This document shows positions 10,812-33,141 of a stretch of DNA of 40,247 nucleotides, one piece after another. The notes beneath the pieces were generated by a model. It was not told the DNA's origin. It was given only the letters and a program-made list of their open reading frames with translations, and searched no databases. Within the stretch, counting starts at the first letter, position 1, and each line of letters opens with the position of its first letter. Position numbers and translations under genes: made by a program. The stretch is taken from the NCBI GenBank assembly GCA_030696525.1, contig JAUYSB010000307.1, positions 1 through 40,247 on the forward strand. Reading direction: 5' to 3'. The DNA comes from Hydrogenophaga sp. GTDB lineage: Bacteria; Pseudomonadota; Gammaproteobacteria; Burkholderiales; Burkholderiaceae_C.

Positions 10812-11161
10812 AGTCCAGCGAGACTGCGCGCACCACCGACAGGCCCAGCCGTTGGATGTGAGGTAGGTACGGGGCCCACAGGCTCCTTGTTAACCCCCTG
10901 CCAGCGAAGACGTCGGGTCCGTGTCCCAGCGGCGCGCGCCGACCGTTACTGCAATTCAACAACACAAACCATGTCGCGGACCTCAAAGCAGGAATGCGGT
11001 TGAGGGGCTCACGCCAAGCAGACAAGTGCCTACAGTCCGCCTACTGGCTCGGGCGATCGATTCTGGTGGGCACTTTCAAGATTCCCCCGCGAAAAAGGTT
11101 TTCCAGCGGAACCGCCGGCACTAGCCACCCCTCATGAGGAGACATATGTTTTTTCTGGACC
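10812..11161. other. 350-bp intergenic region: possible gene remnant, operator copy and leader
   Basis: This is the only gap over 300 bp. Near its left end the minus strand reads YLPHIQRLGLSVVRAVSLDFKRG to a stop at 10798-10800, overlapping the flavoprotein end. It looks like the C-terminal tail of a lost convergent gene, but no family was recognised. Further on are one copy of the island's 15-bp operator (10983-10997), a -10-like TACAGT (11031-11036) and a leader containing an 8-codon ORF at 11146. The rest shows nothing recognisable. Confidence 0.45.
10983..11036 (+). promoter_or_regulatory. Island operator copy F plus -10 (hydrolase/Bug1 promoter)
   Basis: TCAAAGCAGGAATGC (10983-10997) matches the island dyad GCAWAGCWGCTWTGC at 12 of 15 positions. 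A -10-like TACAGT (11031-11036) follows after 33 bp. The -35 position (CTCACG) is poor, which suggests dependence on an activator. Confidence 0.5.
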
Positions 11162-11172
11162 ATGTGGCCTGA
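11146..11172 (+). other. 8-codon leader ORF overlapping the hydrolase start
   Basis: An ATG at 11146 follows GAGGAG (11136-11141) at short spacing and reads MFFLDHVA before TGA at 11170-11172. The hydrolase ATG (11162) lies inside it in another frame and has no ribosome-binding site of its own. Termination and re-initiation could couple the two. It may also be chance. Confidence 0.3.
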
Positions 11173-12022
11173 CACCCACACCACAAGTGCAGCCCGGTCT
11201 GACCCCTGGCCCGGCCAACACGCCCACCTGCCCGGCACGCGCCTGTGGTACGTGGACACCGGTGGCACGGGCGATGTGGTGGTGCTGCTCCATGCCAACA
11301 CCGGCACGGTGCTGGCGTGGGACAAACAGATCAACCCGTTCTACGCCGCCGGCTTGCGTGTCATCGCCTTTGACCGCAGGGGTTGGGGCCGCAGCGAGAT
11401 CGATCCGACCACCGGGCCTCAACCCGGCACGGTGGCCGACGACCTCGACGCATTGATGCAACACCTGCGCATCGACAGTTTTCACCTGGTGGGCATTGCG
11501 GGGGGCGGGTTTGTGGCACTGGACTACGCCGCCTGGCGCCCACACAAGCTGCGCAAGCTGGTGGTGTGCGCCAGCAACGGGCAGTTCAACGAACCGGAGA
11601 TGCAGGCGCTGTCTGCACACATCGCCATTCCCGGGCTGACAGGCGTGCCCGCGTTGCGTTCGTTCCTAGAGGTCGGTGTGGCGTACCGGGCCGAGAACCC
11701 TGATGGCTGGGCGCGCTTCAAGGCCATCGAACACCAGGCCCAACAGGCGGGGGCGCCCGCGCAACCCATGCGCACACCCAACACCTACGCCAAGGTCGCC
11801 ACCATCCAGACCGCCACCTTGGTGCTGATGGGTGGCGCCGATCTGCTGGCGCCCCCGGCCCTGATGCGGACCTGGGCACGCCATCTGCCCCACGCCGAAC
11901 TGGCCTGCATCGAAGACGCCGGCCACGCCATCAACTGGGAGCGACCCACCGCGTTCAACACCATGGTGCTGGATTTTCTTGCGCCCCCCACCCCAACACC
12001 ACCAGGAGCCACCCATGTCTGA
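11162..12022 (+). CDS. Alpha/beta-hydrolase-fold protein with Ala at the nucleophile position
   Basis: A 286-residue cytoplasmic alpha/beta-hydrolase-fold protein with a lid-type insertion after the elbow. The nucleophile elbow reads HLVGIAGGGF where active hydrolases read HLVGHSMGGF, so the nucleophile Ser is Ala113. Asp227 (GGADLLAPP) and His255 (EDAGHAINW) keep the acid and base. The oxyanion motif HG is HA (LLHANTG). The protein at 18745-19713 shares all these changes. A non-hydrolytic role such as a lyase, a cofactor-free oxygenase or a binding protein is possible. Its end overlaps the Bug1 gene by 8 bp, so the two form an operon. Confidence 0.85.
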   Translation: MWPDTHTTSAARSDPWPGQHAHLPGTRLWYVDTGGTGDVVVLLHANTGTVLAWDKQINPFYAAGLRVIAFDRRGWGRSEIDPTTGPQPGTVADDLDALMQHLRIDSFHLVGIAGGGFVALDYAAWRPHKLRKLVVCASNGQFNEPEMQALSAHIAIPGLTGVPALRSFLEVGVAYRAENPDGWARFKAIEHQAQQAGAPAQPMRTPNTYAKVATIQTATLVLMGGADLLAPPALMRTWARHLPHAELACIEDAGHAINWERPTAFNTMVLDFLAPPTPTPPGATHV

Positions 12023-13016
12023 AACCACCCGCCCCGCCCCGCGCGCCACGCTCCAGCGCAGATCGCTTTTGTGCGCCGGCCTCGCATGCGCCTGGCCCCT
12101 GGGCGCCACCTGGGCGCAGTCTGTGGGCGTCACCAAACTCATCGTGCCCTACACGCCCGGGGCCTCCAACGACCTGGTGGCGCGCCTGTTTGCCGACGCC
12201 ATGGCCAAACGCACGGGCGGCAACTGGATCGTCGAGAACAAACCCGGTGCGGGCTCCATGCTGGGTGCCGAACACGTGGCCAAGGCCAGCCCGGATGGCC
12301 TGACCCTGCTCCTGTGCGCACCCGCCAACATGGGCATCCTGCCTGCCATACGTAAGACCATGCGCTACGACGTGGAGCGCGACTTCAGCTTTATCGGGCG
12401 CATCGCCAGCAGCCCGTTCGGCTTGGCCGTGAACACCGCGGTGCCGGCCACGAACTTCGCCGAATTCATACAGCTCGCCATATCCAAGCCGGGTGCGATC
12501 CGGATCGGTGCCGCCGGCATGGGCTCGCTCGACTACATGGGTTCATCGCTGCTGCAGGCGCAGCTGGGCATCAAGCTGCAAATCATTCCCTACAAAGGCA
12601 TGGCGCCGGTGTTGAACGACCTGCGCGCAGGGCACATTGACGCCACCATCGTGAGCCCCGCCACCGCGTTGCCCCTGATCAGGGAAGGGCAAGTCCGCAT
12701 GTTGGCGGTGCTGGACAAACAACGCAGCGCGCTGCTGCCCAACGTGCCCTCGTCGGCCGACCTGGGCCAGCCCCGGCTCCATGTGTTGAACTGGTGGGGC
12801 ATCGCGGCGCCGGCCAAGCTGCCGCCTGCCACCGCCAACACCCTGCGCCAGCACATGCAAGCGGTGCTGGCCGATCCCAGTTTCATGAAAACCCTGCAAG
12901 ACAAAGGCTTCGAACCCAGCCCGCTGATGGGCGATGCGTTCGCGCAGTTCGTCGGCGCCGAACTCGGCGCATGGAAGCAGATCGCCCGCCAGGACAACAT
13001 CAGCCTGGAAGAGTGA
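12015..13016 (+). CDS. Bug-family tripartite tricarboxylate transporter binding protein (Bug1)
   Basis: A 333-residue periplasmic solute-binding protein of the Bug/TctC family. The N-terminus has an RRSLLCAGL motif and a hydrophobic stretch ending near TWA-QS, a Tat-like or Sec signal. The mature part shows the family landmarks VPYTPGASNDLVAR, NKPGAGS and SPDG. These proteins bind carboxylates for TctAB-type carriers, but no tctAB gene is in the window. AGGAG lies about 7 bp before the ATG. The stop abuts the stop of the convergent acyl-CoA dehydrogenase with no gap. Confidence 0.93.
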   Translation: MSETTRPAPRATLQRRSLLCAGLACAWPLGATWAQSVGVTKLIVPYTPGASNDLVARLFADAMAKRTGGNWIVENKPGAGSMLGAEHVAKASPDGLTLLLCAPANMGILPAIRKTMRYDVERDFSFIGRIASSPFGLAVNTAVPATNFAEFIQLAISKPGAIRIGAAGMGSLDYMGSSLLQAQLGIKLQIIPYKGMAPVLNDLRAGHIDATIVSPATALPLIREGQVRMLAVLDKQRSALLPNVPSSADLGQPRLHVLNWWGIAAPAKLPPATANTLRQHMQAVLADPSFMKTLQDKGFEPSPLMGDAFAQFVGAELGAWKQIARQDNISLEE

Positions 13017-14243
13017 TCAGGCCCGCACCACGCCCTTGGCCAGTTCGATCTTGGCAAGGGCGTTGCGGTGCACCTCGTCCGGGCCGTCCACGATGCGCAC
13101 GGTGCGCTGGTGGGCATAGGCCTCGGCCAGCCAGAAATCCTGGCTGACGCCGGCCGCACCATGGGCCTGTATGGCCCAGTCCACCACCTTGCACGACACG
13201 TTGGGCGCCACCACCTTGATCATGGCGATCTCGGCGCGCGCGTCCTTGTTGCCCACGGTGTCCATCTTGTGGGCGGCGTTGAGCGTCAGCAGACGCGCCT
13301 GGTCGATCAGGCAGCGCGACTCGGCAATGCGCTCGTGCCAGATGGATTGCTCGGCCAGGGGTTTGCCAAAGGCCACGCGCTGGCGCAGGCGTTCGCACAT
13401 CATCTCCAGCGCCCGTTCCGCGGCGCCGATGGAACGCATGCAGTGGTGGATGCGGCCCGGGCCCAGGCGCCCTTGAGCAATCTCGAACCCCCGCCCTTCG
13501 CCCAGCAGGATGTTGGCCACCGGCACACGCACGTTGTCCAGCAACACCTCCATGTGGCCATGGGGTGCGTCGTCATAACCAAACACCGACAGGTGGCGCA
13601 ACACCGTGATGCCCGGCGTGTTGCGCGGGACCAGCACCATGGACTGCTGCGCATGGCGCGGCGCGCTCGGGTCGGTCTTGCCCATGACGATGAAAATCTG
13701 GCAGCGCGGGCTGCCGGCACCAGACGAAAACCATTTGCGCCCGTTGATCACGTACGCGTCGCCATCGCGGGTGATGGTGCACTGGATGTTGGTGGCGTCC
13801 GACGAGGCCACAGCCGGCTCCGTCATCAGGAAACCCGATCGGATGTCCCCGGCCAGCAGCGGCTCCAGCCACTGGTCCTTCTGCGCTTCGGTGCCATAGC
13901 GTTCTATGGTTTCCATGTTGCCGGTATCGGGCGCCGAGCAGTTGAACACCTCACCCGACCACGACACCCGGCCCATGAGCTCGCACAGGGGTGCGTAGTC
14001 CAGGTTGGAGATGCCGGGCACACCGCGATGGGCATGGGGCAGGAACATGTTCCACAGCCCCGCCTGGCGCGCCAGCGGCTTGAGTTCCTCGATCAGGGGC
14101 ACCACCTGCCACGGATTGCCCGCACGGCGAAAGGCGTCCAGCTCCTCGTGGTAACGGGCTTCGTTGGGGTAGATGTGCGCGTCAAAAAAACGCTGCAGGC
14201 GGTTCAACAAATCGAGGGTGCGGGGCGAGGGATCGGCAAACAT
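13017..14243 (-). CDS. Acyl-CoA dehydrogenase, ACAD10/11-like
   Basis: A 408-residue FAD acyl-CoA dehydrogenase that would introduce the alpha-beta double bond into an acyl-CoA. The all-helical N-terminal domain is followed by [15 protein letters not shown] (substrate/FAD region) and [15 protein letters not shown]. The C-terminal segment has [15 protein letters not shown], the form seen in ACAD10/11-like enzymes, with Asp where classical members have the catalytic Glu. The ATG at 14243 gives the normal N-terminus; an upstream extension of the frame has no family match. It lies downstream of the enoyl-CoA hydratase and Bug2 genes on the same strand. Confidence 0.92.
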
Positions 14244-14352
14244 GGTGAGGTCCTGGTGGGTGGGTCGCGCAAGGGTATCAAGGCGACGGCAGCGCCAGAA
14301 CCCCCGGCCTCTGTGGGCCGTCACCCGTGCGACTGGGCTCGGCCCGGCGTGT

Positions 14353-15375: not shown

Positions 15376-15378
15376 CGC

Positions 15379-16155
15379 TCAGCGCCCCGTGAACACCGGC
15401 GCGCGCTTTTCGGCAAAGGCACGCTGGGCCTCCTTGGCGTCGTCGGTCTTGGCGATGAGGGCGGTCATGTCCTGCTCGTAGCGGTAGCCGTCGCGCAAGC
15501 TCATGTCCTCGATCACGTTGAGCGTGTGTTTGCCCATGCGGGTGGACACCGGGCTCTTGGAGGCGATGGTCTGCGCCAGCGCCAGGGCCGTGGGCATGAG
15601 CTCCTCGGGTGTGGTGCAGGCCTCAACAATGCCCAGGCGGTACAGCTCTTCGCCGGGCACCCGCATGCCGGTCAACATCATGCGGCGCAGGCGCGAATGG
15701 CTGAACAGCCGCATGGCGTGGCGGCAACCGCCCAGCAGGCCCACGTCCACCTCGGGCAGGCCGAGCGAGGCCTTGTCGGACGCGATCAGGATGTCGCTTG
15801 ACGCCGCCATCGCCAGACCCGAACCCAGTGCCGCGCCGTTGATGGCCGTGATGACAGGCTTGGCGCATTCGCGGATGGCGTGAAAACACTCGCGCGTGCG
15901 GCGCGAATGGGCCGGCAGATCACCCGGCCCCTGGATGACCGACGCGCGGCCCTTGAGATCGGCCCCGGCACAAAACACCTTGCCGGCGCCGGTCAGCACC
16001 ACCACACGCACCTCGTCCATTTCGGAGATGCGGTCCAGGGCCAGCGTGAGTTCGTCGTTGAGCACCCGGGTGAGCGCGTTCACCGGTGGGCTGTTCAGGG
16101 TCAGGATGGCCACATGGCCTTGCAGTTCGCAATCGAGTTGTGTGAGCTTGTCCAT
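15379..16155 (-). CDS. Enoyl-CoA hydratase/isomerase-family protein
   Basis: A 258-residue crotonase-fold protein. The CoA/oxyanion motifs CAGADLKGRA and NGAALGSGLAMA are visible. Of the two catalytic glutamates of enoyl-CoA hydratase, the second is kept (GLPEVDVGLLGG), but the first, in GGGCELA, is Ala here (LGSGLAMA). A classical syn-hydratase is therefore less likely than an isomerase, hydrolase or decarboxylase-type crotonase. It is the first gene of a minus-strand unit with Bug2 and the acyl-CoA dehydrogenase, with its own operator and promoter upstream (16205-16259). Confidence 0.9.
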   Translation of the reverse strand: MDKLTQLDCELQGHVAILTLNSPPVNALTRVLNDELTLALDRISEMDEVRVVVLTGAGKVFCAGADLKGRASVIQGPGDLPAHSRRTRECFHAIRECAKPVITAINGAALGSGLAMAASSDILIASDKASLGLPEVDVGLLGGCRHAMRLFSHSRLRRMMLTGMRVPGEELYRLGIVEACTTPEELMPTALALAQTIASKSPVSTRMGKHTLNVIEDMSLRDGYRYEQDMTALIAKTDDAKEAQRAFAEKRAPVFTGR

Positions 16156-16204
16156 AGCGTGTCCATGTGCAGCGGCGTGCCGCGGTTGTCTCCAGCGAGC
16201 GGCC

Positions 16205-16259
16205 AGTCTAGCCCCGGCACGTGCACACAGGTAGCGCGGCGCGTGCAGGGCTGCTATGT
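16205..16259 (-). promoter_or_regulatory. Island operator copy A plus -10 (enoyl-CoA hydratase promoter)
   Basis: GCAGGGCTGCTATGT (16245-16259) matches the island dyad at 12 of 15 positions. In gene direction a -10-like TAGACT (16210-16205) follows after 34 bp, giving a leader of about 43 nt to ATG 16155. The -35 position is poor. Confidence 0.55.
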
Positions 16260-16272
16260 CTGCATGGGCAAG

Positions 16273-17241: not shown

Positions 17242-17243
17242 GC

Positions 17244-18209: not shown

Positions 18210-18268
18210 GTCTTGTCTCCTAGGAAAAATCAACAGGGGGTTGGATTGGGATGGGATGGGCAATGCGT

Positions 18269-18727: not shown

Positions 18728-18744
18728 GACGCGCCCCGGCCGGA

Positions 18745-19713: not shown

Positions 19714-19762
19714 GTTGTCTCCGTTTGAGTTGTGGGGAAAGTCGGCCCGTGCGGCGGGCGGT

Positions 19763-22057
19763 TCAGGTCGGCAAATCCAGCACCGTCTTGGCCAGGATGT
19801 TTCGCTGGATCTCGTTGCTGCCGGCAAAAATCTTGGCGTTCATAGCGTTGAACAAGGGCGCCATCACGTGCATGTCGATCTCGTCGGTCAGGGCGTGATC
19901 GCGCAGCGCGTCGTAGTCCTGCGCCGACTCGATCAGCAAAAGGGCCAGCCGCTCGTAGGTCTCGGTCGACCAGATCTTGAGCATGGAAATCGTGGGCGGT
20001 ATGGGCTCGCCGCGCTTGGCCATCTCGGCAAAACGCGTGTAGGCCGCGCCCAGGTCGGCGGTGTCGAGCTGCAGCTCGGCCAGGCGCGCCACAAAGGCCG
20101 GATCGTCGAACAGGCCACGCTGGCGCGCCAGCTTCTCCACCTGGTGCAGGGTGTGCTGCGAATGTTTGGGGCTGCCGGTGAACAGGCGCTCAAAACCGAG
20201 CAAGGCCTTGGCCACCGTCCAGCCCTGGTTGAGTTCGCCCACCAGGTTCTCGCAGGGCACCCGCACGTCGTCGAAGAACACCTCGCAGAACTCGTGCTCG
20301 GCCGCGATGTTGCGGATGGGGCGCACGGTGATGCCGGGGGTTTTCAGGTCCACCAGCAGAAAGCTGATGCCGGCCTGCTTTTTCACCGTCTTGTCGGTTC
20401 GCACCAGCATGAACATGTGGGTGCCGTCCGAGCCCCAGGTGGTCCAGGTCTTCTGGCCATTGACCACAAAGTGCTCGCCATCGCGCACCGCCTCGGTCCG
20501 CACGGCGGCGAGGTCGGAGCCGGCGTTGGGCTCGGAGTAGCCCTGGGTCCAGACGTGTTCACCCGACAGCACCTTGGGCAGAAAACGCTGGCGTTGCGCC
20601 TCGGTGCCAAACCGCATGAGGATGGGGCCGATCATCACCAGGCCCTGGTCGGGTGGGCGCGCCACACCCCAGGCTTCGCTCTCTTCGATGTAGGCGATCA
20701 GCTTGTCGGCCGGCAGCCCCAGGCCGCCGTGTTCGCGCGGCCAAGCCGGGGCCAGCCAACCCAGGCGCGACAGCGTCATGTACCAGTCGCGCGACTCGGC
20801 CCAGGTCTGGCGGTACGGCAGGTGGCGGCGGTGTTCCGGGTAATGCCGTGCGAACAGCGCGCGCACCATGGCGCGAAACGCGGTGTCGGGCAGGGTGTCC
20901 CAGTCCAGATCGGTCGGAAAGTCGTCGCGGTCCGGCACGGGCACCGTGCTGTTGTGTGCCGTGTGGGGGGCCGATGCCATCCAGCGGCGTCGGTGTGTGG
21001 CGGCGTTGCCCCAGCGGCTGGCCAGCGCCATGGCCCGCTTGAAGTACAGGCCCACGTCGTACTCGTTGGTGGTGCCAATGGCGCCGTGCAATTGGATGGC
21101 CAGCCGGGTCATCTCGGTGGCCGCGTGTGCGCAGCGCGCCTTGGTGCGGCTGGCCACCGCCGCCAGGTTGTCGTCGGTGACCGTGGCCAGCCCCTCGCGC
21201 AGGCAGGCGGCGGCCAGTTCGACCTGGATCAGGCCGTCCACCAGCCGGTGCTGCAAGGCCTGGAAACTGCCGATGGGTTGGCCAAACTGCACACGCGTGC
21301 ACAGGTAGTCGCGGGTCAGCTCCAGGCTGCGGCGGGCGATGCCCACCAGCTCCGCCGCCTGGGCGATGCGGGCGATGTCGTTGGCCTGCTGCAGCGCCTG
21401 CAGCGCCACGCTGCCGCGTGCCAGCAGCACGGCCTGCGCGCCGTCCAGCGCCAGCGTGGAGACGGCGCTGCCGTCTACCCCGGCGCCGTGGCCCAGCGTC
21501 AGGCCGGGGGCACCGGCCGCCACCCAGAACAGCGCCAGGCCGTCGTCGATTCCAGCGGCCACGATCCAGCCATCGGCACCGGGGCCGGGCCGCACAAAAC
21601 GCTTGTGTCCGGTCAGGCTGGCGCGTGTGCCGTCCAGGTTGGCACTGGTCATGCCCAGACCGGCCTCGATCTCACCCGCGCTTTCCTGCCAGGCCACACC
21701 CGCCACTTGGGCGCCTGCCTGGATGTCGGCCAGCAGTTCATCGCGCAAGCCCCCGGCAGGCAGCCGCGCCAGCAAGGCCACCGGGTGCACACCGGCATCC
21801 ACCAGGGGTTCGGGCAAGAGGTGGCGCCCGGCCTCTTCAGCGATGGCGGCCAGTTCGGACAAGCCCAGGCCCAGCCCGCGATCGGACTCGGGCACCAGGA
21901 TGGACAACCAGCCCAGCTCGGCCAGTTGCTGCCAAACCGCGCGGTCGAAGCCGCCCCCGGCGTCTTCCAGCGCGCGCACGCGCTGGCGCTGGTCGTGAGC
22001 GCCCAGGAAGCCGCTGGCGCTGTGGCGGAACATGGCAATGGATTCGTTGTCGCTCAT
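19763..22057 (-). CDS. Two-domain (fused) acyl-CoA dehydrogenase
   Basis: A 764-residue protein made of two acyl-CoA dehydrogenase units. Residues about 1-370 form one unit ending in QLHGAIGTTNEYDVGLYFKR. Residues about 371-764 form the second, with TQGYSEPNAGSDLA, NGQKTWTTWGSDG and MNAKIFAGSNEIQRNILAK. Related systems are alpha2beta2 enzymes with the halves on separate genes, or fusions like mycobacterial FadE34. Such enzymes often act on bulky or polar acyl-CoAs. It starts two bp after the caiB1 stop, so the transferase probably makes its substrate. Confidence 0.92.
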   Translation of the reverse strand: MSDNESIAMFRHSASGFLGAHDQRQRVRALEDAGGGFDRAVWQQLAELGWLSILVPESDRGLGLGLSELAAIAEEAGRHLLPEPLVDAGVHPVALLARLPAGGLRDELLADIQAGAQVAGVAWQESAGEIEAGLGMTSANLDGTRASLTGHKRFVRPGPGADGWIVAAGIDDGLALFWVAAGAPGLTLGHGAGVDGSAVSTLALDGAQAVLLARGSVALQALQQANDIARIAQAAELVGIARRSLELTRDYLCTRVQFGQPIGSFQALQHRLVDGLIQVELAAACLREGLATVTDDNLAAVASRTKARCAHAATEMTRLAIQLHGAIGTTNEYDVGLYFKRAMALASRWGNAATHRRRWMASAPHTAHNSTVPVPDRDDFPTDLDWDTLPDTAFRAMVRALFARHYPEHRRHLPYRQTWAESRDWYMTLSRLGWLAPAWPREHGGLGLPADKLIAYIEESEAWGVARPPDQGLVMIGPILMRFGTEAQRQRFLPKVLSGEHVWTQGYSEPNAGSDLAAVRTEAVRDGEHFVVNGQKTWTTWGSDGTHMFMLVRTDKTVKKQAGISFLLVDLKTPGITVRPIRNIAAEHEFCEVFFDDVRVPCENLVGELNQGWTVAKALLGFERLFTGSPKHSQHTLHQVEKLARQRGLFDDPAFVARLAELQLDTADLGAAYTRFAEMAKRGEPIPPTISMLKIWSTETYERLALLLIESAQDYDALRDHALTDEIDMHVMAPLFNAMNAKIFAGSNEIQRNILAKTVLDLPT

Positions 22058-22059
22058 GC

Positions 22060-23280
22060 TCAGATCACCTGGTTCCGTTTGAGATCGGCGATGTGTTCGG
22101 GGCTCAGCGCTAGGCGCTCACCCAGCACCTGTTCGGTGTGTTCACCCAGCAGCGGCGGCGCGCGGTGGTATTGCACCGGTGTGGCCGAAAACTTCACCGG
22201 GTTGGCCACCTGGGGCACGCTGCCGGCCGAGCTGTGGGGCAGGTCCAGCCGCATCTCGCGGTGGACGATCTGCGGGTCGGCAAAGACCTCGGCAAACGTG
22301 TTGATGGGGCCACTGGGCACACCCACCGCCTCGAAAGCGTGGTGCCAGTGGCGCACCGTTTGCTGCGCCAGCGCTTGTGCCAGCATGGGCACCAGCAGCA
22401 GCCGGTGTCTGGCCCGTTGCGGGTTGGTGGCAAAACGTTCGTCCGTGGGCAGTTCGGGCAAGCCCAGCACCTGGCAGAAGGCCACGAACTGGGTGTCGTT
22501 GCCCACCGCCACCACGATCTGACCGTCGGCGCAGTCGAAGGACTGCCAGGGGCAGGTGATGGGCGAGGCGTTGCCTAGGCGCGGCGGCTGTTGCCCCGAG
22601 ACGAGGTACATCATGGCCACGTGCGAGATGGAAGCCACCTGGGCGTCCAGCAGCGCCAGGTCGATGTGCTGCCCCTCGCCCGAGACCATGTCACGGTGGC
22701 GCAGTGCGGCCAGGATGGCGCTCACGGCGTAGAAGCCGGCGGTGATGTCGCCCACCGAATAGCCCACGCGTATGGGGCCGCCGCCGGGCTCGCCGTCGGC
22801 GTGTCCGGTGATGCTCATGAGCCCGCTCATGGACTGGAACAAGGGGTCGTAGCCCGGCAGGTGGCTGTAGGGGCCAGACTGGCCAAAGCCGCTGATGGAG
22901 CAGTACACCAGCCGGGGATTGACCGCGCGCAGCGCAACGTGGTCCAGCCCGTAGCGGGCGAGGTCACCGGCCTTGAAGTTTTCGATCACGATGTCGCTGT
23001 CGGCCGCAAGCTGGCGCACCAGCGCCTGGCCTGCAGGCTGGGCGATGTCGATGGTGATGGAGCGTTTGCCCCGGTTCATGGCCAGGAAGGACGAGGTCTC
23101 GCGGGTCTCCTGACCTTGCGCATCGCGGGCCCGCAGGCCCTGGTGGCGCACGTCGTCGCCGCGGCCAGGGCGTTCGACCTTCACCACGTCGGCACCAAAG
23201 TCGGCCAGCATCTGGGCGGCCCAGGGGCCGGAGAAAACGCGGCTCAGGTCGAGCACGCGCACGCCATTCAGACTGCTCAT
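22060..23280 (-). CDS. CaiB/BaiF-family CoA-transferase 1
   Basis: A 406-residue family III CoA-transferase that moves CoA from a donor such as succinyl-CoA to a free acid. The N-terminal RVLDLSRVFSGPWAAQ, the central YCSISGFGQSGPY and the catalytic Asp (about residue 145, PGYDPLFQ) are present. The ATG at 23280 has GAGGAG about ten bases upstream; an earlier in-frame start at 23310 has no such site. It heads the longest minus-strand unit: transferase, fused dehydrogenase, hydrolase-like, MaoC, Bug3 and hydroxyacid dehydrogenase. Confidence 0.94.
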   Translation of the reverse strand: MSSLNGVRVLDLSRVFSGPWAAQMLADFGADVVKVERPGRGDDVRHQGLRARDAQGQETRETSSFLAMNRGKRSITIDIAQPAGQALVRQLAADSDIVIENFKAGDLARYGLDHVALRAVNPRLVYCSISGFGQSGPYSHLPGYDPLFQSMSGLMSITGHADGEPGGGPIRVGYSVGDITAGFYAVSAILAALRHRDMVSGEGQHIDLALLDAQVASISHVAMMYLVSGQQPPRLGNASPITCPWQSFDCADGQIVVAVGNDTQFVAFCQVLGLPELPTDERFATNPQRARHRLLLVPMLAQALAQQTVRHWHHAFEAVGVPSGPINTFAEVFADPQIVHREMRLDLPHSSAGSVPQVANPVKFSATPVQYHRAPPLLGEHTEQVLGERLALSPEHIADLKRNQVI

Positions 23281-23329
23281 CGTTGGGTTGCTCCTCGTGT
23301 GTATCGCCACCTCGTGTGGCGTGGTCTGG

Positions 23330-23385
23330 AATCTAGGGCCAAGGCCCCCAGCGAGCCAGACACGCGGGCCGCAAAGCAGCTATGC
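23330..23385 (-). promoter_or_regulatory. Island operator copy B plus -10 (caiB1 promoter)
   Basis: GCAAAGCAGCTATGC (23371-23385) is a full match to the island dyad and overlaps the stop codon of caiB2. In gene direction the 11-mer GTCTGGCTCGC (23361-23351) comes next, then a -10-like TAGATT (23335-23330), 35 bp from the dyad. The leader would be about 43 nt. Confidence 0.6.
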
Positions 23386-24558
23386 ACCGCCGGCCTCCAG
23401 TCCTTGCGCAAAACGCAAGATGTCGGCGCGGTGCTCGTCCAGCCGTGGCACGGCCGGCAGGCGGGCCGGGTAGGCCTGGGTCGAGAGCAGGATGGGTGTC
23501 ACCGGCGCGCGCTGCCCGCCCGTGCCTTCGATCTCGGGCAACAGGCCACGGGCGGCCACCTGTGGGTCGGCCACCATGTCGGCCACATCGTTGAGCGGGC
23601 CGGCGGGCACGCCCGCCTCGTCCAGCCGCGCCAGCCAGTGCGCCACCGGCGCCGTGGCCAGCACACCCTCGATCAGCAGCTTCAAATCGGCCTGGTGGTG
23701 CACCCGCTGGGCGCGGCCGGCAAAGCGCGCATCCAGCGGCAACCCGGGCTGGCCGAGCGCGCCCGCCAGGCGGCTGAACAGGTGGTCGGAACCGGCAGCG
23801 ATCACCACATGGCCATCGGCCGCCGCAAAGGCGTCGAAGGGTGCGGTGCCGGGGTGGCGCGCGCCCAACGGCCCGGGCGCCACACCCGAACACCAGAGTT
23901 CGGGGATGGCGCCTTCGAGCAAGGCAATCTGGGTCTCCAGCATGGACACGTCCACATGGCAGCCTGTTCCAGTGCGCCCGCGCTGCAAAAGCGCAGCCTG
24001 TATGCCGTTGCAGGCAAACAGCGCGGCCGACAGGTCGCCGATGGAGGAGCCGACCCGCACCGGTGCAGCACCCACATGGCCGGTGATGCTCATCATGCCG
24101 CTCATGCCTTGCACCACAACGTCGTAGGCGGCGCGGGCGCGGTAGGGCCCGGTCTGGCCAAAGCCGGAAATGGAGGCCAGCACCAGCGCCGGGTGCCGCT
24201 GCGCCAGCGTGGTGAAACCGTAACCCAGCTTGTCCAGCACACCGGGGCGGAAGTTCTCCACCAGCACGTCGGCACGCGCCAGCAGCTGTTCAAACACCGC
24301 GCGGTCGGCCGGCTGCTTCAGGTCCAGCGCGATCGATTCCTTGCCCCGGTTGATGGCGGCGAAATACGCCGACCCCCCATCGGGCGCGGCGGGCAGGAAG
24401 TGCCGTGCCTCGTCGCCACCGTCGGGTTGTTCGACCTTGATCACCCGGGCACCGAGGTCGCGCAGCATCATGGTGCAGTAAGGCCCGGACAACACGCGGC
24501 TGAGGTCGAGCACCACGAAGCCGGCAAGGGGCCCGCCCGTGGTGGTGGCTGCTGTCAT
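23380..24558 (-). CDS. CaiB/BaiF-family CoA-transferase 2
   Basis: A 392-residue family III CoA-transferase. VVLDLSRVLSGPYCT, SISGFGQTGPYRARAAYD with the catalytic Asp near 146, and NRGKESIALDLK are visible. It is more distant from transferases 1 and 3 than those are from each other. It is preceded by AGGAG (at 24566-24570, minus strand) and is transcribed away from the fumarase-type genes, sharing an operator region with them. The promoter of caiB1 begins within its last codons. Confidence 0.93.
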   Translation of the reverse strand: MTAATTTGGPLAGFVVLDLSRVLSGPYCTMMLRDLGARVIKVEQPDGGDEARHFLPAAPDGGSAYFAAINRGKESIALDLKQPADRAVFEQLLARADVLVENFRPGVLDKLGYGFTTLAQRHPALVLASISGFGQTGPYRARAAYDVVVQGMSGMMSITGHVGAAPVRVGSSIGDLSAALFACNGIQAALLQRGRTGTGCHVDVSMLETQIALLEGAIPELWCSGVAPGPLGARHPGTAPFDAFAAADGHVVIAAGSDHLFSRLAGALGQPGLPLDARFAGRAQRVHHQADLKLLIEGVLATAPVAHWLARLDEAGVPAGPLNDVADMVADPQVAARGLLPEIEGTGGQRAPVTPILLSTQAYPARLPAVPRLDEHRADILRFAQGLEAGGA

Positions 24559-24593
24559 GGCAAGTCTCCTGCGCCTGGTGTGGGTCAGCGTGG

Positions 24594-24649
24594 ATTGTCG
24601 AAGTGCGGTCGGGCGCGAGCCAGACCTGGAACCTGCATAGCTGCTTTGC
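24594..24649 (-). promoter_or_regulatory. Island operator copy C plus leftward -10 (caiB2 promoter)
   Basis: The dyad GCATAGCTGCTTTGC (24635-24649) is a full match to the consensus and is the reverse complement of copy B. Leftward it is followed by GTCTGGCTCGC (24625-24615), the same 11-mer as before caiB1, and by a -10-like GACAAT (24599-24594) 35 bp from the dyad. Confidence 0.6.
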
Positions 24650-24688
24650 CGACCAGCCCAACACGGGCGCCCCCGCGCTGCCTACACT
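24635..24688 (+). promoter_or_regulatory. Island operator copy C plus rightward -10 (fumarase-type operon promoter)
   Basis: The same dyad (24635-24649) lies 33 bp before a -10-like TACACT (24683-24688) on the plus strand. This would give a leader of about 17 nt to ATG 24712. One operator thus appears to serve two divergent promoters. Confidence 0.6.
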
Positions 24689-24711
24689 GCGCCGCAGCCC
24701 CGACTGCGACC

Positions 24712-25581
24712 ATGCCCATCACATCCGACACCATCAAGACCGTCACCGCGCAGCTCTACGACCGGGCCTTGCGCGGCATTCCCAAAGACGCCGAACACGC
24801 GCTGCGCCAGGCCAGCGGCACCGAGCGCAACGAGACCGCCCGCCACACCCTGCGGCTGATGCTGGAGAGCGCCGAGGCCGCCGCGAGCCAGCGGCACTTT
24901 GTGTGCTCCGACGCCGGCGTGCCGGTGTACTTCGTGAAGGTCGGCGCGCAGGCCACGTTCGGTGGCCAGGTGCGCCAGGCCATCACCCAGGGTTTTGCCG
25001 AGCTGGTCGCCAGCATCCAGCCGCCGCTGCTGCCACACGTCACCCATCCGCTGACGCTGGAGCGTGGCTACCAGGGCAAGGGCATGCCCATCGTCACCTT
25101 CGACCTGGTGGACGATTGCGACTTCGTCGAGATCATCTGCTCGCCCAAGGCGCTGGGCTCGGGCCGCTGGGCCGCGCTGGAGATCTTCACCCTGCCCGAT
25201 CTGCAGACCATCGAGACCTTTGTGATCGACACCGTGATCAAGGCCGGCGCGCAGCCCTGCCCGCCGGTGGTGATTGGCGTGGGCGTGGGCGGCACCTTCG
25301 ACTACGCCGCCAAGATGGCCAAGGAAGCCACGCTGCGTCCCATCGGCCAGCACCACGCCGAGCCCATGGTGGCCGCCATGGAACAGCGGCTGGCGCAGGC
25401 GGTGAACATGACCGGCTTTGGCCCCATGGGCACCGGTGGCGACAGCACCGCCATGGCGGTCAACGTCGAGTACTGCGCCGGTCACGGTTTCACGCCGGTG
25501 GCGGTGGCCTTCAACTGCTGGATCAACCGCCGCACGCGGGCCCGCCTGCACAACGATGGCCGCGTCGAGGTGCTGGAGTGA
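24712..25581 (+). CDS. Fumarase/tartrate dehydratase-type hydro-lyase, alpha subunit
   Basis: A 289-residue alpha subunit of a class I (Fe-S) hydro-lyase. Likely [4Fe-4S] ligand cysteines lie in VCSDAG, QPCPPVVIGVG and VAFNCW. Family members act on fumarate/malate, tartrate or similar 2-hydroxy dicarboxylates. Being split into alpha and beta genes, and lying among CoA-transferase genes, it more likely handles a pathway intermediate than the TCA cycle. The ATG at 24712 is the family start; a very long open frame upstream is antisense to the caiB genes. The beta subunit follows after 4 bp. Confidence 0.9.
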   Translation: MPITSDTIKTVTAQLYDRALRGIPKDAEHALRQASGTERNETARHTLRLMLESAEAAASQRHFVCSDAGVPVYFVKVGAQATFGGQVRQAITQGFAELVASIQPPLLPHVTHPLTLERGYQGKGMPIVTFDLVDDCDFVEIICSPKALGSGRWAALEIFTLPDLQTIETFVIDTVIKAGAQPCPPVVIGVGVGGTFDYAAKMAKEATLRPIGQHHAEPMVAAMEQRLAQAVNMTGFGPMGTGGDSTAMAVNVEYCAGHGFTPVAVAFNCWINRRTRARLHNDGRVEVLE

Positions 25582-25585
25582 CACC

Positions 25586-27984: not shown

Positions 27985-27991
27985 AAAGACC

Positions 27992-28666: not shown

Positions 28667-28714
28667 CGCACTGTCCAACCGCGCACCTCAACACAACACC
28701 CACAGGAGACACAC

Positions 28715-29698
28715 ATGTTCAAGCCGCCCTACCCCACCACCCGCCGAACACTGCTGGCCTTGGCCGCGCTGTGCGCCCTGCCCTTGGCGCATGCGCAGGC
28801 ACCCTTTCCCTCGCGGCCCATCACCCTGGTCCACCCCTACGCCGCTGGCGGCCCGGCCGACACCATGGCGCGCGCCCTGGCCCAGCAACTGGAAGCCCGG
28901 CTGAAACAGCCGGTGATCGTGGAGGCCAAGGCCGGCGGCGCGGCCACCATAGGCACGGCCTACGTGGCCCGTGCCAGGCCCGACGGCCACACCCTGCTGG
29001 TGGGCACCTCGGCCGGACACGTGGTGACACCGCTCATGCAGCGCATCGCCTACGACGGCATCGGCGACTTTGCCTTCATCGCCGTGGTGGCCAACCAGCC
29101 CAACGTGCTGGTGGTGCACCCCTCGCTGGGGGTGGACCGGCTGGCGGACCTGGTGGCGCTGGCGCGCAAGCAGCCGGGCACGCTGAACTACGCATCGGCG
29201 GGCACGGGCGGCGCCACCCACCTGGGCGCCGAGGCCTTTGCCCAGGCCGCCCAGATCAAGATCACCCACGTGCCCTACAGCGGTGCCGCGCCGGCCCTCA
29301 AAGACCTGCTGGGCGGCCAGGTGCAAATGGGCATGCTCAACCTCGCGGCCACCAAAGCCTTCATCGCCGACGGCAAGCTCAAGGCCCTGGCCTACGGCGG
29401 CGTCAAGCCCACGCCGCTGTTGCCGCAGGTGCCAACCTTGTCGCAAGCCGGCTATGGCGCCACGGCGGCGGCCACCTGGTACACACTGGCCGCGCCCAAG
29501 GGCACGCCCGCCGCCGTCATCGAAACGCTGCGCAAGGCCGTGGCCGAAGCCAACGAAGACCCCGCCTACCTCAAGGTGCTCGACGGCATGGGCGCCGAGC
29601 GGCTGGACCTGTCCCCGGCGGACACCACCGCCTACGTGCAACAGGACAAGACCGCGATGGAGGCCCTGTTGACCCGGCTGGACCTGCTCGCCAAATGA
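28715..29698 (+). CDS. Bug-family binding protein (Bug4)
   Basis: A 327-residue periplasmic Bug/TctC protein. The signal peptide has TTRRTLLALAALCALPLAHA with cleavage before QAPF. Landmarks are VHPYAAGGPADTMAR, EAKAGGAATIGTA, RPDGHTLL and VPYSGAAPA. A strong AGGAG lies seven bp before the ATG. It closes the operator-C unit (fumarase-type alpha and beta, esterase-like, flavin reductase-like, Bug4). The other three Bug proteins of the island differ clearly in sequence, so they probably bind different acids. Confidence 0.93.
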   Translation: MFKPPYPTTRRTLLALAALCALPLAHAQAPFPSRPITLVHPYAAGGPADTMARALAQQLEARLKQPVIVEAKAGGAATIGTAYVARARPDGHTLLVGTSAGHVVTPLMQRIAYDGIGDFAFIAVVANQPNVLVVHPSLGVDRLADLVALARKQPGTLNYASAGTGGATHLGAEAFAQAAQIKITHVPYSGAAPALKDLLGGQVQMGMLNLAATKAFIADGKLKALAYGGVKPTPLLPQVPTLSQAGYGATAAATWYTLAAPKGTPAAVIETLRKAVAEANEDPAYLKVLDGMGAERLDLSPADTTAYVQQDKTAMEALLTRLDLLAK

Positions 29699-29723
29699 GG
29701 CCGGGTCCGTCTTGCGCGGGCAG

Positions 29724-29778
29724 GCATCTCAGCATTGCCTTGCAGCCTATAGCCCCGCAGCGTGATGCGACCTAGAGT
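29724..29778 (+). promoter_or_regulatory. Island operator copy D plus -10 (caiB3 promoter)
   Basis: GCATCTCAGCATTGC (29724-29738) matches the dyad at 12 of 15 positions. A -10-like TAGAGT (29773-29778) follows after 34 bp. The leader to ATG 29812 is about 27 nt, and the -35 position is poor. Confidence 0.5.
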
Positions 29779-29811
29779 CACCAGGCCACACACCGATCCC
29801 TTCACACCACC

Positions 29812-31041
29812 ATGAACACCTCCACCGGCCCCCTGTCCCACGTCAAGGTCCTGGACCTAAGCCGCATCCTGGCGGCCCCGTGGGCGGCCCAGGTCCTGGC
29901 CGATCTCGGCGCCGACGTCGTCAAGGTCGAACGTCCCGGCGCGGGCGACGACACCCGCTCCTGGGGCCCGCCCTTCCTGAAGGGCGCCGACGGCCGCGAC
30001 ACCAAGGAGGCAGGCTACTACCTCGCCGTCAACCGCGGCAAACGCTCCATCACCCTGAGCCTGGACAAACCCGAAGGCCAGCGCATCGTGCGCGAGCTGG
30101 CGCAACACGCCGACATCGTGCTGGAGAACTACAAAGCCGGCACGCTGGCACGCTACGGGCTGGACGAAGCCTCGCTGCGCCAGCTCAACCCACGCCTGAT
30201 CTACTGTTCGGTCACAGGCTTTGGCCAGACCGGCCCGCGCCGCGACCAGCCCGCCTACGATTTCCTGATCCAGGCCATGGGCGGGCTCATGAGCGTGACC
30301 GGCGAAAAGGACGGCAAACCCGGCGCCGGTCCACAAAAGGTGGGCATTCCCATCGTCGACCTGATGACGGGCATGTACACCACCGTGGCGGTGCTGGCCG
30401 CGCTCGCCCGCCGCAACGAAACCGGCGTGGGCGACTACATCGACATCGGCATGCTCGACGTGCAGGTGGCCACCTTGTCCAACCAGGCCATGAACTACCT
30501 GGTGTCGGACAAGGTGCCCACACGCAACGGCAACGCCCACCCCAACATCCAGCCGCAGGACGTGTACGGCTGCACCGACGGCGACGTGATCCTGGTGGTG
30601 GGCAACGACGGCCAGTTCGCCAAGCTCTGCGAGGTGCTGGGCCACAACGAATGGCCGCTGGACGAACGTTTTGCCACCAACGCGCAACGGGTGCGCCACA
30701 TCGCAACGCTGTCGGCCCTGCTGCGCGAAGCCTTCGGGCAAAGGCGGCGCGAGGACGTGATCGCCGCGCTGGACCAGGCCGGTGTGCCGTGTGGCCCCAT
30801 CAACAGCGTGGCCGACGTGTTCAAAGACCCGCAGGTGGTGGCGCGCGGCATGCTCAAACACGTGCCCCACCCCAGCGGCGTGGATGTGCCCCAGGTGGCC
30901 AGCCCCATGCGCTTTGGCCACGCCCAGCTGCAGACGCTGGCGCCACCACCGCTGCTGGGTCAGCACACCGAAACCATCCTGGCCGAGCTGGGCTATGGCC
31001 AAGGCGACATCGAGGCCTTGCAGGCCGCGGGGGTGGTGTGA
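29812..31041 (+). CDS. CaiB/BaiF-family CoA-transferase 3
   Basis: A 409-residue family III CoA-transferase, closest in the window to transferase 1. KVLDLSRILAAPWAAQ, NRGKRSITLSLDK, YCSVTGFGQTGP and the catalytic Asp near residue 150 (PAYDFLIQ) are present. Family members use donors such as succinyl-CoA and act on dicarboxylates, carnitine, formate/oxalate or aromatic succinates. The TGA of this gene and the ATG of the GST gene share one base, so the two are coupled. Confidence 0.94.
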   Translation: MNTSTGPLSHVKVLDLSRILAAPWAAQVLADLGADVVKVERPGAGDDTRSWGPPFLKGADGRDTKEAGYYLAVNRGKRSITLSLDKPEGQRIVRELAQHADIVLENYKAGTLARYGLDEASLRQLNPRLIYCSVTGFGQTGPRRDQPAYDFLIQAMGGLMSVTGEKDGKPGAGPQKVGIPIVDLMTGMYTTVAVLAALARRNETGVGDYIDIGMLDVQVATLSNQAMNYLVSDKVPTRNGNAHPNIQPQDVYGCTDGDVILVVGNDGQFAKLCEVLGHNEWPLDERFATNAQRVRHIATLSALLREAFGQRRREDVIAALDQAGVPCGPINSVADVFKDPQVVARGMLKHVPHPSGVDVPQVASPMRFGHAQLQTLAPPPLLGQHTETILAELGYGQGDIEALQAAGVV

Positions 31042-31649
31042 TGATGCGCTTGCACTGGTCCCCCAAGTCGCCCTATGTGCGCAAGGTCATGGTGTGTGCC
31101 CACGAGCTGGATCTGCTGCCTCAACTGGAGCTGGTGCGCTCAGTCGCTGCCATGCTCAAGCCCAACGAGCGGCTGATGCAGGACAACCCCTTGTCCAAGA
31201 TTCCCACCCTGGTGCTCGACAACGGCTTGGCCCTGTTCGATTCGGGGGTGATCTGCGAGTACCTGGACGACCTGGCCGGTGGTGCGCTGTTCCCCAAGGA
31301 CCCCGGCACCCGCTGGCCGGCGCTGCGCTGGCAGGCCCTGGGCAACGGCCTGCTGGACGCGCTCATCCTGTGGCGCAACGAACGTGAACGCGACGTGCCC
31401 CTCGCGCCGCTGATGGACGCCTTCGCGCTCAAGACCGACGCCTGCCTCCAGCAGTTGGAAAACGAAACAGCGGCCTTGACCGACACCCCGCTGTCCATCG
31501 GCCACATCGCTATCGGCTGTGCCCTGGGTTACATCGACTACCGCTTTGAGAACCTGAACTGGCGCGCCAGCGCACCGCAGCTCGCGGCCTGGCACCACGG
31601 GCTGTGCGAGCGCCCGTCCTTTCAGGCAACGGCGCCGGTGGACGGCTGA
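31041..31649 (+). CDS. Glutathione S-transferase family protein
   Basis: A 202-residue GST. The N-terminal thioredoxin-like domain has SPKSPYVRKVM with a likely catalytic Ser, the cis-Pro motif KIPTLV and the glutathione-gamma-glutamyl motif LFDSGVICEYL. The C-terminal helical domain follows. Two ATG codons in tandem (31041 and 31044) are possible starts. Coupling to caiB3 suggests it acts on a pathway intermediate, for example as an isomerase or in thioether cleavage, but no reaction can be assigned. Confidence 0.9.
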   Translation: MMRLHWSPKSPYVRKVMVCAHELDLLPQLELVRSVAAMLKPNERLMQDNPLSKIPTLVLDNGLALFDSGVICEYLDDLAGGALFPKDPGTRWPALRWQALGNGLLDALILWRNERERDVPLAPLMDAFALKTDACLQQLENETAALTDTPLSIGHIAIGCALGYIDYRFENLNWRASAPQLAAWHHGLCERPSFQATAPVDG

Positions 31650-31658
31650 GCTTGAGCG

Positions 31659-31679
31659 GCAGCGGCACCCCGCCGCTGC
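31659..31679. terminator. Hairpin between convergent genes
   Basis: GCAGCGGC (31659-31666) and GCCGCTGC (31672-31679) form a perfect 8-bp stem with a 5-nt loop between the GST stop and the convergent amidohydrolase stop. No clear U-run follows on either strand, so it is a terminator-like structure rather than a canonical terminator. Confidence 0.45.
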
Positions 31680-31686
31680 GTTGGCG

Positions 31687-32493
31687 TCAGGCGTACAAGG
31701 CGGTCGGGTTGCTTTGAAGCACCTGGTGGACCAGCACTTCGCTGCCGGTCCAGGCCTTGAAGGTGGCCAGCAGATCGGCCGCATCGGGTTCCGGTGCCAC
31801 GCGCAGGTGCGGCCAGTCGCTGCCCCACAACAGGCGCTGGGGGTTGGCCTGCAACAAGGCCTGGTGGAAGGGGCGGCCCCGTTCGAAGTCCGGCACCGCC
31901 AGCAGGTTGCGGTAGGCACAGAGCTTGACCCAGGCCTGCCCACTTTCGACCAGGGACAACAAGGCCCTGAAGCCGGGCTCGTGCACACCCGCGTTCACAT
32001 CAAAACCGCCCATGTGGTCGATGACCACCGGCACCGGCAAGGCGCGCAGGGTGGCGGCGATCCCGGGCAGCGCCAGGTGGTCGGTCCACAGTTCGGCGTG
32101 CAGCCCCGCGTCGGCCAGGCGCGGTGCCAGCGCCAACAAATCGTCCAGCGAGGCGCTGCCGGCGAAATTGGCGCCGGCGGCGCTGCGGTGGCTGAAACGC
32201 AGCGCGCGCACGCCCTGCGCACGCAGCCCGGCCAGGTCCAGCGGCGTGTCCTGGCGCAGCACCACCACGCCGCGCAGCTGGGGGTGAGCGGCCAGCGCAT
32301 GGAACAACAGGCTGAAGTCGTCACCGTAGGCGCTCGGGTGCACCAGCACGCCGCGGTCCAGGCCCAGGCGCTGCAGCAGCGCCAGGTAGGCGGCCTCGGT
32401 GGCCTCGGGCGGGGTGTAACTGCGGTCAGCCGCCAACGGGAAGTGGGCATAGGGCCCGAACAGGTGGGCGTGACAGTCCCAGCCGCCGTTCAT
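31687..32493 (-). CDS. Amidohydrolase family protein, 2-pyrone-4,6-dicarboxylate hydrolase-like
   Basis: A 268-residue TIM-barrel metal-dependent hydrolase. The N-terminal DCHAHLFGP gives the HxH metal motif; VIDHMGGFD and LLWGSDWPH provide further family residues. The best-known relatives (LigI type) open the lactone ring of 2-pyrone-4,6-dicarboxylate. Here it is coupled by a 4-bp overlap to a carboxymuconolactone decarboxylase-family gene, a pairing that suggests lactone or ring-cleavage chemistry. The substrate is not certain. Confidence 0.87.
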   Translation of the reverse strand: MNGGWDCHAHLFGPYAHFPLAADRSYTPPEATEAAYLALLQRLGLDRGVLVHPSAYGDDFSLLFHALAAHPQLRGVVVLRQDTPLDLAGLRAQGVRALRFSHRSAAGANFAGSASLDDLLALAPRLADAGLHAELWTDHLALPGIAATLRALPVPVVIDHMGGFDVNAGVHEPGFRALLSLVESGQAWVKLCAYRNLLAVPDFERGRPFHQALLQANPQRLLWGSDWPHLRVAPEPDAADLLATFKAWTGSEVLVHQVLQSNPTALYA

Positions 32494-33059
32494 GCCGGAC
32501 CCCGCTGTGGCAATGGGAAAGCGGGTGCCGTGCCTTCGGGCAAGGGGATTTCATGGGCGTTGAGCGTCATGGCCACCATGGTGTAGTAGCCCACCAGCGC
32601 GGTGAGCTCGACCACGGTGCGGGCACCGAAACGCGCCAACGCCTGGGCGTAAGTGGCATCGGTCACGGAGTTGAAACGGTTGAGTTCGGTGGCGAACTGG
32701 ATGACCGTGGCCTCGTCCTGGCCAATGCCCTCGGGCATCCGCTGCGCGAGCAAGGCCTCGATGATGGGCGCCTCAATGCCGACCTTCTCTGCCTCGGCGC
32801 GGTGTGCGTACCACTCGAAGGGCGACTCGCAGGCGCGGCCGGTGACCAGAATCGCCAGCTCCGACAGGCGCGGCGTCAGCGTGGTGTTGTAGCGCAGGAA
32901 TTCACCAAGCGCCTGCCAGCGGTCGGCCAGCTCGGGGCTGTGCAGCGCGGCGCGCAGGGGGCCGACGATCTTGCCGCGTCGGCCGGAAACCACCTTGTCG
33001 TGGACACGGCGCTGGTCCTCGTCCATGGTCTCGGGGGTGGGGAATGGAATGCGTGACAT
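32490..33059 (-). CDS. Carboxymuconolactone decarboxylase-family protein
   Basis: A 189-residue protein of the AhpD/CMD helical fold. The core reads ELAILVTGRACESPFEWYAHRAEAEKVG. It has the FEWYAH motif but lacks the CxxC pair of AhpD, so a peroxidase role is unlikely. GAGGAG lies about ten bases before ATG 33059. It heads a two-gene unit with the amidohydrolase, and copy E of the island operator lies upstream. Many proteins of this family have no known reaction. Confidence 0.88.
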   Translation of the reverse strand: MSRIPFPTPETMDEDQRRVHDKVVSGRRGKIVGPLRAALHSPELADRWQALGEFLRYNTTLTPRLSELAILVTGRACESPFEWYAHRAEAEKVGIEAPIIEALLAQRMPEGIGQDEATVIQFATELNRFNSVTDATYAQALARFGARTVVELTALVGYYTMVAMTLNAHEIPLPEGTAPAFPLPQRGPA

Positions 33060-33086
33060 GCTGGCTGTGCTCCTCTTGTGCGGGCG

Positions 33087-33141
33087 AGCTTAGCCCGGCA
33101 GGGGGTGCGCGGCCAGCGCATGGCGCGCATCTCAGCTATGC
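33087..33141 (-). promoter_or_regulatory. Island operator copy E plus -10 (CMD-family gene promoter)
   Basis: GCATCTCAGCTATGC (33127-33141) matches the dyad at 13 of 15 positions. In gene direction a -10-like TAAGCT (33092-33087) follows after 34 bp and gives a leader of about 21 nt. The site lies between the CMD-family gene and the end of the LysR gene. Confidence 0.55.

Follow-up and report, generated by a model that had tools for sequence, protein, structure and literature searches.

A repeated dyad before seven promoters points to a local LysR-type regulon in a catabolic gene cluster of Hydrogenophaga sp.

Does a short palindrome that recurs before several transcription units of one contig mark a regulon, and if so which protein would read it? 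The question is raised by contig JAUYSB010000307.1 of Hydrogenophaga sp. (assembly GCA_030696525.1, 3.97 Mb, 80% complete), from which the window, i.e. the whole stretch of 40,247 nucleotides analysed here, carries a catabolic gene cluster in which a first-pass annotation had pointed out six copies of a 15-base-pair (bp) dyad, each with a -10-like hexamer at nearly constant distance. It is very probable, as judged by sequence comparison, that these dyads are the operator of the LysR-type regulator encoded at 33150-34130 and that the cluster is one regulon; the simplest account would be a mobile catabolic cluster whose pathway has a LysR regulon of its own. Four things are computed results and are described first, namely the motif, the constancy of its spacing, its retention before orthologous genes and its co-occurrence with the LysR gene.

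A search of the window for GCAWAGCWGCTWTGC with up to three mismatches gives six places, at 10983, 16245, 23371, 24635, 29724 and 33127, with 3, 3, 0, 0, 3 and 2 mismatches respectively; the six positions, the two full copies and the 12 to 13 of 15 matching letters in the others are as first annotated, and so are the seven -10 hexamers, which lie 33, 34, 35, 33, 35, 34 and 34 bp from the dyad towards the gene. The sites, with their scores under the promoter matrix described below, are these:

10983..10997, forward strand: dyad, weakest copy, TCAAAGCAGGAATGC, before a rightward abhydrolase-Bug unit; matrix 21.2
11031..11036, forward strand: -10 hexamer TACAGT, gap 33 from dyad 10983
16245..16259, reverse strand: dyad ACATAGCAGCCCTGC (leftward reading), before the enoyl-CoA hydratase unit; matrix 31.1
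16205..16210, reverse strand: -10 hexamer TAGACT, gap 34 from dyad 16245
23371..23385, reverse strand: dyad, exact copy, overlapping the CoA-transferase B stop codon, before the leftward CoA-transferase A/acyl-CoA dehydrogenase unit; matrix 38.7
23330..23335, reverse strand: -10 hexamer TAGATT, gap 35 from dyad 23371
24635..24649, no single strand: dyad, exact copy, common to two divergent promoters; matrix 35.9 rightward, 30.7 leftward
24683..24688, forward strand: -10 hexamer TACACT, gap 33 from dyad 24635, towards the fumarase-like alpha subunit
24594..24599, reverse strand: -10 hexamer GACAAT, gap 35 from dyad 24635, towards CoA-transferase B
29724..29738, forward strand: dyad GCATCTCAGCATTGC, before CoA-transferase C and a GST-like gene; matrix 30.8
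29773..29778, forward strand: -10 hexamer TAGAGT, gap 34 from dyad 29724
33127..33141, reverse strand: dyad GCATAGCTGAGATGC (leftward reading), between the LysR gene and the carboxymuconolactone decarboxylase (CMD) gene; matrix 30.9
33087..33092, reverse strand: -10 hexamer TAAGCT, gap 34 from dyad 33127

Three independent tests bear on whether these sites belong together, namely the ranking of the window by the matrix, a count of spacings and a set of held-out loci. The matrix was trained on 48 promoters from other genomes, each with a dyad of up to three mismatches and TANNNT at 33-35 bp, the window sequence being excluded, and under it the seven promoters seen by eye are the window's seven best, from 38.7 to 21.2, with the next place at 7.1; the highest of 25 dinucleotide shuffles of the window reaches 20.8, which six of the seven, at 30.7 or more, clearly exceed. 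Spacing was counted on 49 dyads from 25 loci, picked by the dyad alone, L223-L225 (here and below L with a number is a comparison locus, G with a number a comparison genome) having been chosen for carrying an exact dyad. Taking both sides, 98 in all, TANNNT stands at 33 bp from the dyad edge 4 times, at 34 bp 19 times and at 35 bp 8 times, which makes 31 sides, as compared with 18 for 87 other distances together, and 30 of the 49 dyads have it at 33-35 bp on at least one side. The eight held-out loci (161,040 bases; three from other families, L294, L295 and L296, four plasmid stretches of Comamonas and Variovorax, and G104) contain 24 sites at a score of 20 or more, a number that includes both readings of one L294 dyad and is to be read knowing that some of these loci are near kin of training genomes and that the two V. 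paradoxus plasmids resemble each other. No site at 20 was found in 86 control loci gathered as CoA-transferase relatives (1,457,951 bases), nor in reversed sequences.

The protein proposed to bind the dyads is encoded beside the last of them:

33150..34130, reverse strand: LysR-type regulator, 326 amino acids, with PF00126 (HTH_1) and PF03466 (LysR substrate-binding) above cut-off

The first-pass annotation had suggested this protein, and it is supported as the best predicted candidate because its orthologues accompany the dyads and the cluster and because in L212, L221 and L294 a target is divergent from the LysR gene with a site in between. At identities of 65-80% orthologues were found (E up to 1e-85) in 16 of 398 other genomes of the family, G105 standing at 50%; CoA-transferase C (E up to 1e-165) was found in 17 of the 398, which are all 16 with a LysR orthologue plus G104 (76% complete). 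The regulator has 798 homologues at 1e-60, and among the 120 matches listed the names are general or absent; among the best 25 of 53 NCBIfam models none reached its cut-off, the best giving 113 of 309 bits.

In 19 LysR-centred loci, those of G399 and G400 included (360,822 bases), there are 40 dyads with up to two mismatches as against 9 for the reversed pattern, and 32 of the 40 are intergenic or at a gene edge in loci of which intergenic DNA makes up 11%; 100 permuted palindromes gave a mean of 0.2 such hits and a maximum of 2. Codon-usage gene calls are wrong in some loci (e.g. L208, L217) and some of the 8 dyads placed in genes fall upstream of genes by tblastn, the unfavourable count having been retained. 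The motif is therefore not equally common within genes or away from promoters, as these 32 of 40 and the 30 of 49 with TANNNT indicate.

What is conserved is also the position relative to particular genes. A site of 20 or more precedes the cmd orthologue in 14 of the 19 LysR-centred loci, and in some loci sites stand before orthologues of coaT_C, ech, Bug, tannase, flavin reductase, CoA-transferase A/B and abh1 (some of these tallies repeat, L215/L264, L211/L265, L220/L267 and L218/L266 being the same loci in duplicate). The distance from site to gene is 48-106 bp for cmd, 72-90 bp for ech and 66-84 bp for coaT_C, with exceptions of 149 (L225) and of 56 before a 35% relative (L268). The dyad of 33127 recurs with the same letters in the same place in G130 (L207) and G495 (L294), and in G535, which belongs to another family, two opposed gene runs of the cluster are each headed by one site. 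A one-mismatch dyad lies 1.9 kb from the LysR orthologue in G399; in G400 it follows the gene immediately, like the 33127 dyad in the window. Several divergent promoter pairs (L200, L208, L209, L212, L218) have two dyads 22-53 bp apart, one per direction; single dyads scoring both ways are seen at L213 1036, at L214 13853 and at 24635 of the window.

A search with CoA-transferase B returned 80 loci, and among the 12 compared the only syntenic ones were L077 (Variovorax sp. BIN51, a metagenome-assembled genome) and L078 (recorded as Pantoea sp. 18069), rearranged clusters of the same genes, each with an exact dyad, that of L077 (= L202) standing between the CoA-transferase B and A genes like the 23371 copy. 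In these genomes (G399 and G400) the LysR orthologues, 71% and 69% identical, are on another contig or about 100 kb away. CoA-transferase B was dropped as an anchor for further loci, its best relatives in the 398 family genomes (50-59%, 11 loci) lying outside the cluster. The Pantoea record carries a cluster otherwise seen in Burkholderiales, and its organism name may be wrong.

Whole genomes were scanned with a 75-position model of the promoter. In the Hydrogenophaga assembly it finds 8 matches at E of 0.1 or better, of which the best 6 (down to 0.0037) are all in the window, and the regulon of this genome seems confined to the cluster; in G114, G208, G280 and G341, of the same genus, there are only matches of 0.029 or worse. 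A match at 1e-4 is found in 19 of 20 genomes with a LysR orthologue and in 2 of 20 without, a comparison that is not an independent test, since 19 of the 20 LysR-positive genomes (all except the Hydrogenophaga assembly itself) supplied training loci for model and matrix, and the training promoters had been chosen for TANNNT.

How might the regulator act at these sites? In the logo of the 48 promoters T and G at -11 and -10 come before GCAWAGCAGCYWTGC, whose A at position 2 and T at position 12 are invariant (48 of 48); after it stand T.G at the place of the -35 box (23 and 21 bp before the -10) and then C-TAgAsT. The -35 positions are poor, as first remarked, with a T.G remnant kept. Read as half-sites the row is WTGC-N8-GCAW-N7-WTGC-N8-GCAW, symmetric about the dyad centre, and the outer upstream WTGC (three of four letters, at offset -12) is present in 23 of 48 training, 13 of 24 held-out and 4 of 7 window promoters, the 24 being those counted above. 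We would envisage the regulator, presumably as a tetramer, the form in which LysR-type proteins switch with a co-inducer, on a row WTGC - 8 bp - GCAW - 7 bp - WTGC before each promoter, with a weaker fourth GCAW 8 bp further on that would run into the -35 region, around which operators of this family have their activation site. The inner pair of half-sites would be the 15-bp dyad, and the outer upstream one would complete a T-N12-A box.

If the -10 is assumed to lie at -12 to -7, the dyad centre falls near -54 (about -61 to -47) and the outer T-N12-A box near -65, the starts being predicted ones. The first-pass annotation had placed the start 40-42 bp past the gene-proximal dyad edge, which is off, a -10 at -12 to -7 and a centre near -54 giving about 46-48, with about 45-49 as the range to be expected; its remark that the spacing does not suit a T-N11-A box at -65 stands for the dyad itself, but the upstream half-site would form a T-N12-A box near there. 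In a test of column pairs over 79 sites (in which L290 14964, score 18.8, replaces one of the two readings of the L294 dyad) a T-N11-A box is not a feature, the best pair outside the -10 region reaching 14 of 79; pairs at the -10 itself reach 23 and 19 of 79, T-N12-A occurs in 50 of 79 and A-N9-T in 78 of 79. A good -10 at a fixed 33-35 bp together with no more than a T.G remnant of the -35 makes an activator most likely, probably inducer-dependent and standing in for the -35 contact, and binding to the dyad, the tetramer, activation, the inducer and the operon limits are what we infer. Jointly switched on would be the CMD/amidohydrolase genes, three CoA-transferase units, the beta-oxidation-like set, the unit of fumarase-like, tannase and flavin reductase genes, and the Bug proteins.

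Several observations weigh against this reading. The promoter at 10983 (21.2) is barely above the best shuffle (20.8) and is marginal; neither side shows TANNNT at 33-35 bp in 19 of the 49 dyads; and the fourth half-site (GCAW at offset 23, positions 23-26), which overlaps matrix columns in part, is weak, with 14 of 48, 8 of 24 and 1 of 7 in the training, held-out and window promoters. Dyads between LysR and cmd score poorly as promoters in G400 (below 20) and Comamonas endophytica (18.8), and neither of two G400 dyads near acad764 (L204) reaches 20. Model matches occur without a LysR orthologue in G143 and G097, one of them adjoining another LysR gene, and the match of G105, whose LysR identity is 50%, just misses the threshold (1.6e-4). 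In the window the LysR gene and its target run in tandem, where a divergent target with the site in between is common, though not universal, for such regulators; and related genomes are not independent samples. To these must be added the counts of the 15-mer by itself: allowing two mismatches, the assembly has 17 places for the dyad, of which 3 are in the window, and likewise 17 for the reversed pattern; across 298 other family genomes the exact pattern occurs in 20 and its reversed control in 14; and further family-wide counts of 15 against 33 and 54 against 36 show no clear excess. The site in G143 (L256 10023) scores 35.7, and three neighbouring frames, as called, gave no Pfam match; that in G097 (L257 9795-12716) scores 30.5, has an enolase-superfamily gene and a LysR gene of 28% identity in its vicinity, and may belong to a related regulator with a similar operator.

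Such counts are what would favour regarding the six dyads as a chance set picked by eye from GC-rich sequence. In 100 shuffles of the window the mean is 3.33 matches and 12 reach six, so the window count alone is not unusual; with up to one mismatch the assembly holds solely the two exact copies, which flank one CoA-transferase gene, and with no excess in window or genome the 15-mer count does not prove a regulon. A genome-wide regulon read from the dyad letters alone was rejected, the counts matching controls and the outside places lacking a promoter cassette (the promoter matrix, applied to 13 of these 14 two-mismatch places, gives 14.0 at best and nowhere 20). Exact dyads outside the cluster in G022 and G253 (L223, L224) are likewise put down to chance, there being no target relatives near; one scores below 20 and the other 21.7 without a good -10. 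That a matrix from other genomes recovers exactly these promoters, that the spacing is fixed and that held-out loci validate it leave almost no room for chance, which is refuted for six of the seven; 10983 alone could be chance. A site of 28.0 lies in G082 (L265), 74 bp before a 69% relative of the gene of the 10983 unit.

Granted that the sites are real, another transcription factor might bind them, with the LysR gene a mere neighbour or itself a target, as the order LysR - site - cmd in tandem would also suit and as a second LysR gene at 39011 might provide. We hold this to be improbable: the second LysR has hits of only 30% and 36% (L204, L268) in the first set of comparison loci and none in held-out loci, whereas the first stands beside the dyads throughout, including rearranged clusters and other contigs, and a dyad of 4-7-4 geometry suits a protein of the LysR family (no systematic survey was made of other transcription factors in the clusters). 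Somewhat less remote, though still unlikely, is a regulator at 33150-34130 that represses or works both ways, as LysR proteins may repress or activate and the direction of control is not readable from sequence alone; a good -10, a poor -35 and a dyad whose span, about -61 to -47, precedes the core promoter fit activation better than occlusion. Activation through the dyads by the LysR protein remains the account we prefer.

The genes heading the proposed units, and others of the cluster named above, are these:

11162..12022, forward strand: alpha/beta hydrolase, heading the unit of dyad 10983
15379..16155, reverse strand: enoyl-CoA hydratase, heading the unit of dyad 16245
22060..23280, reverse strand: CoA-transferase family III (A), heading the leftward catabolic unit
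23380..24558, reverse strand: CoA-transferase family III (B), by domain search
24712..25581, forward strand: fumarase/tartrate dehydratase-like alpha subunit, by domain search
29812..31041, forward strand: CoA-transferase family III (C), co-occurring with the LysR gene
31687..32493, reverse strand: amidohydrolase family 2 protein, nearest NCBIfam model 4-sulfomuconolactone hydrolase (156 bits, cut-off 500)
32490..33059, reverse strand: CMD-family protein (cmd), PF02627, first gene after the 33127 site

Domain searches confirm the gene content first annotated, with four Bug proteins (their family, Bug/TctC, we take to be COG3181), three class III CoA-transferases, acyl-CoA dehydrogenases, an enoyl-CoA hydratase and MaoC. 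Two of the CoA-transferases are nearest to succinate-glutarate and one to oxalate CoA-transferase, all below cut-off. The presence of CoA-transferases, acyl-CoA dehydrogenases, hydratases, a fumarase-like pair, a lactone-hydrolase-like amidohydrolase, a tannase-family esterase and Bug proteins suggests a pathway for importing and degrading a dicarboxylic or lactone-forming acid that may come from an ester. At 19763-22057 there is a 764-amino-acid protein with two acyl-CoA dehydrogenase units in tandem, nearest to pimC/pimD and below cut-off; on the Comamonas endophytica plasmid (L290) its match splits into overlapping frames, 5199-6230 and 6220-7485.

The cluster appears to have been acquired horizontally: at the thresholds used, neither the LysR gene nor CoA-transferase C has an orthologue in four genomes of the same genus (G114, G208, G280, G341), and scattered genomes of other genera and families have them. 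In Comamonas endophytica, Variovorax sp. SRS16 and two V. paradoxus strains (L290-L293) the cluster is part of large replicons recorded as plasmids.

How does the proposed operator compare with those already described? The OxyR operator of E. coli, in the extracts of PMC5002191, is ATAG-N7-CTAT with four half-sites on one face of the DNA, and the likeness lies in a 15-bp interrupted 4-7-4 dyad with several tetranucleotide half-sites about one helical turn apart; the half-sites here are GCAW/WTGC rather than ATAG/CTAT and the outer spacings are 8 bp. OxyR is the best-scoring solved structure for the regulator (61 bits). The targets here are catabolic, however, and the regulator's sole cysteine, C57, is in the DNA-binding (helix-turn-helix) domain, so there is no redox pair; with none in the regulatory domain and 58 of 329 bits against the OxyR model, the regulator was rejected as an OxyR. 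There is about an even chance, in our judgement, that the operator is a symmetric one of four half-sites, OxyR-like in layout and read by a regulator without redox cysteines, within a promoter cassette of about 75 bp that is kept before each unit while gene order reshuffles between chromosomes and plasmids, such that one matrix reads the whole regulon.

The CatR/CatM/BenM and ClcR sites, as given in the extracts of PMC6449761, have AkACC-N5-GGTAT within T-N11-A; these too belong to LysR-type regulators, which there govern aromatic catabolism and have a dyad before catabolic promoters, but no T-N11-A column pair was found in the 79 sites here. No catABC or ben genes are present in the scanned part of the cluster, and a CatR/BenM-type regulon was set aside on both counts, the gene content being without catechol or benzoate genes and the sites without T-N11-A. 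The same extracts tell of a novel CatR-like factor of the LysR family, which footprinting detected in Comamonadaceae and whose targets include COG3181 proteins (PMC6449761); it has a T-N11-A motif and also targets CatA, CatB and CatC homologues, neither of which holds here. The usual LysR box is T-N11-A, with a recognition site often near -65 (PMC8407307, in extract). In the open-access literature, as far as its extracts go, no description of the cluster, the motif or the regulator was found, and the best reading is that this is a local LysR regulon.

A motif seen by eye has in this way become a validated and transferable model of a regulon, with one candidate regulator, an operator, an exact promoter spacing and a list of genes that would be co-regulated. 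Membership of the regulon shows which enzymes work together, here CMD, the amidohydrolase, three CoA-transferases, paired acyl-CoA dehydrogenases, the tannase and Bug proteins, which is the usual first step towards a substrate, and the cluster offers a natural set of near-identical promoters on which the action of a LysR protein from about -54, without a T-N11-A box, may be studied.

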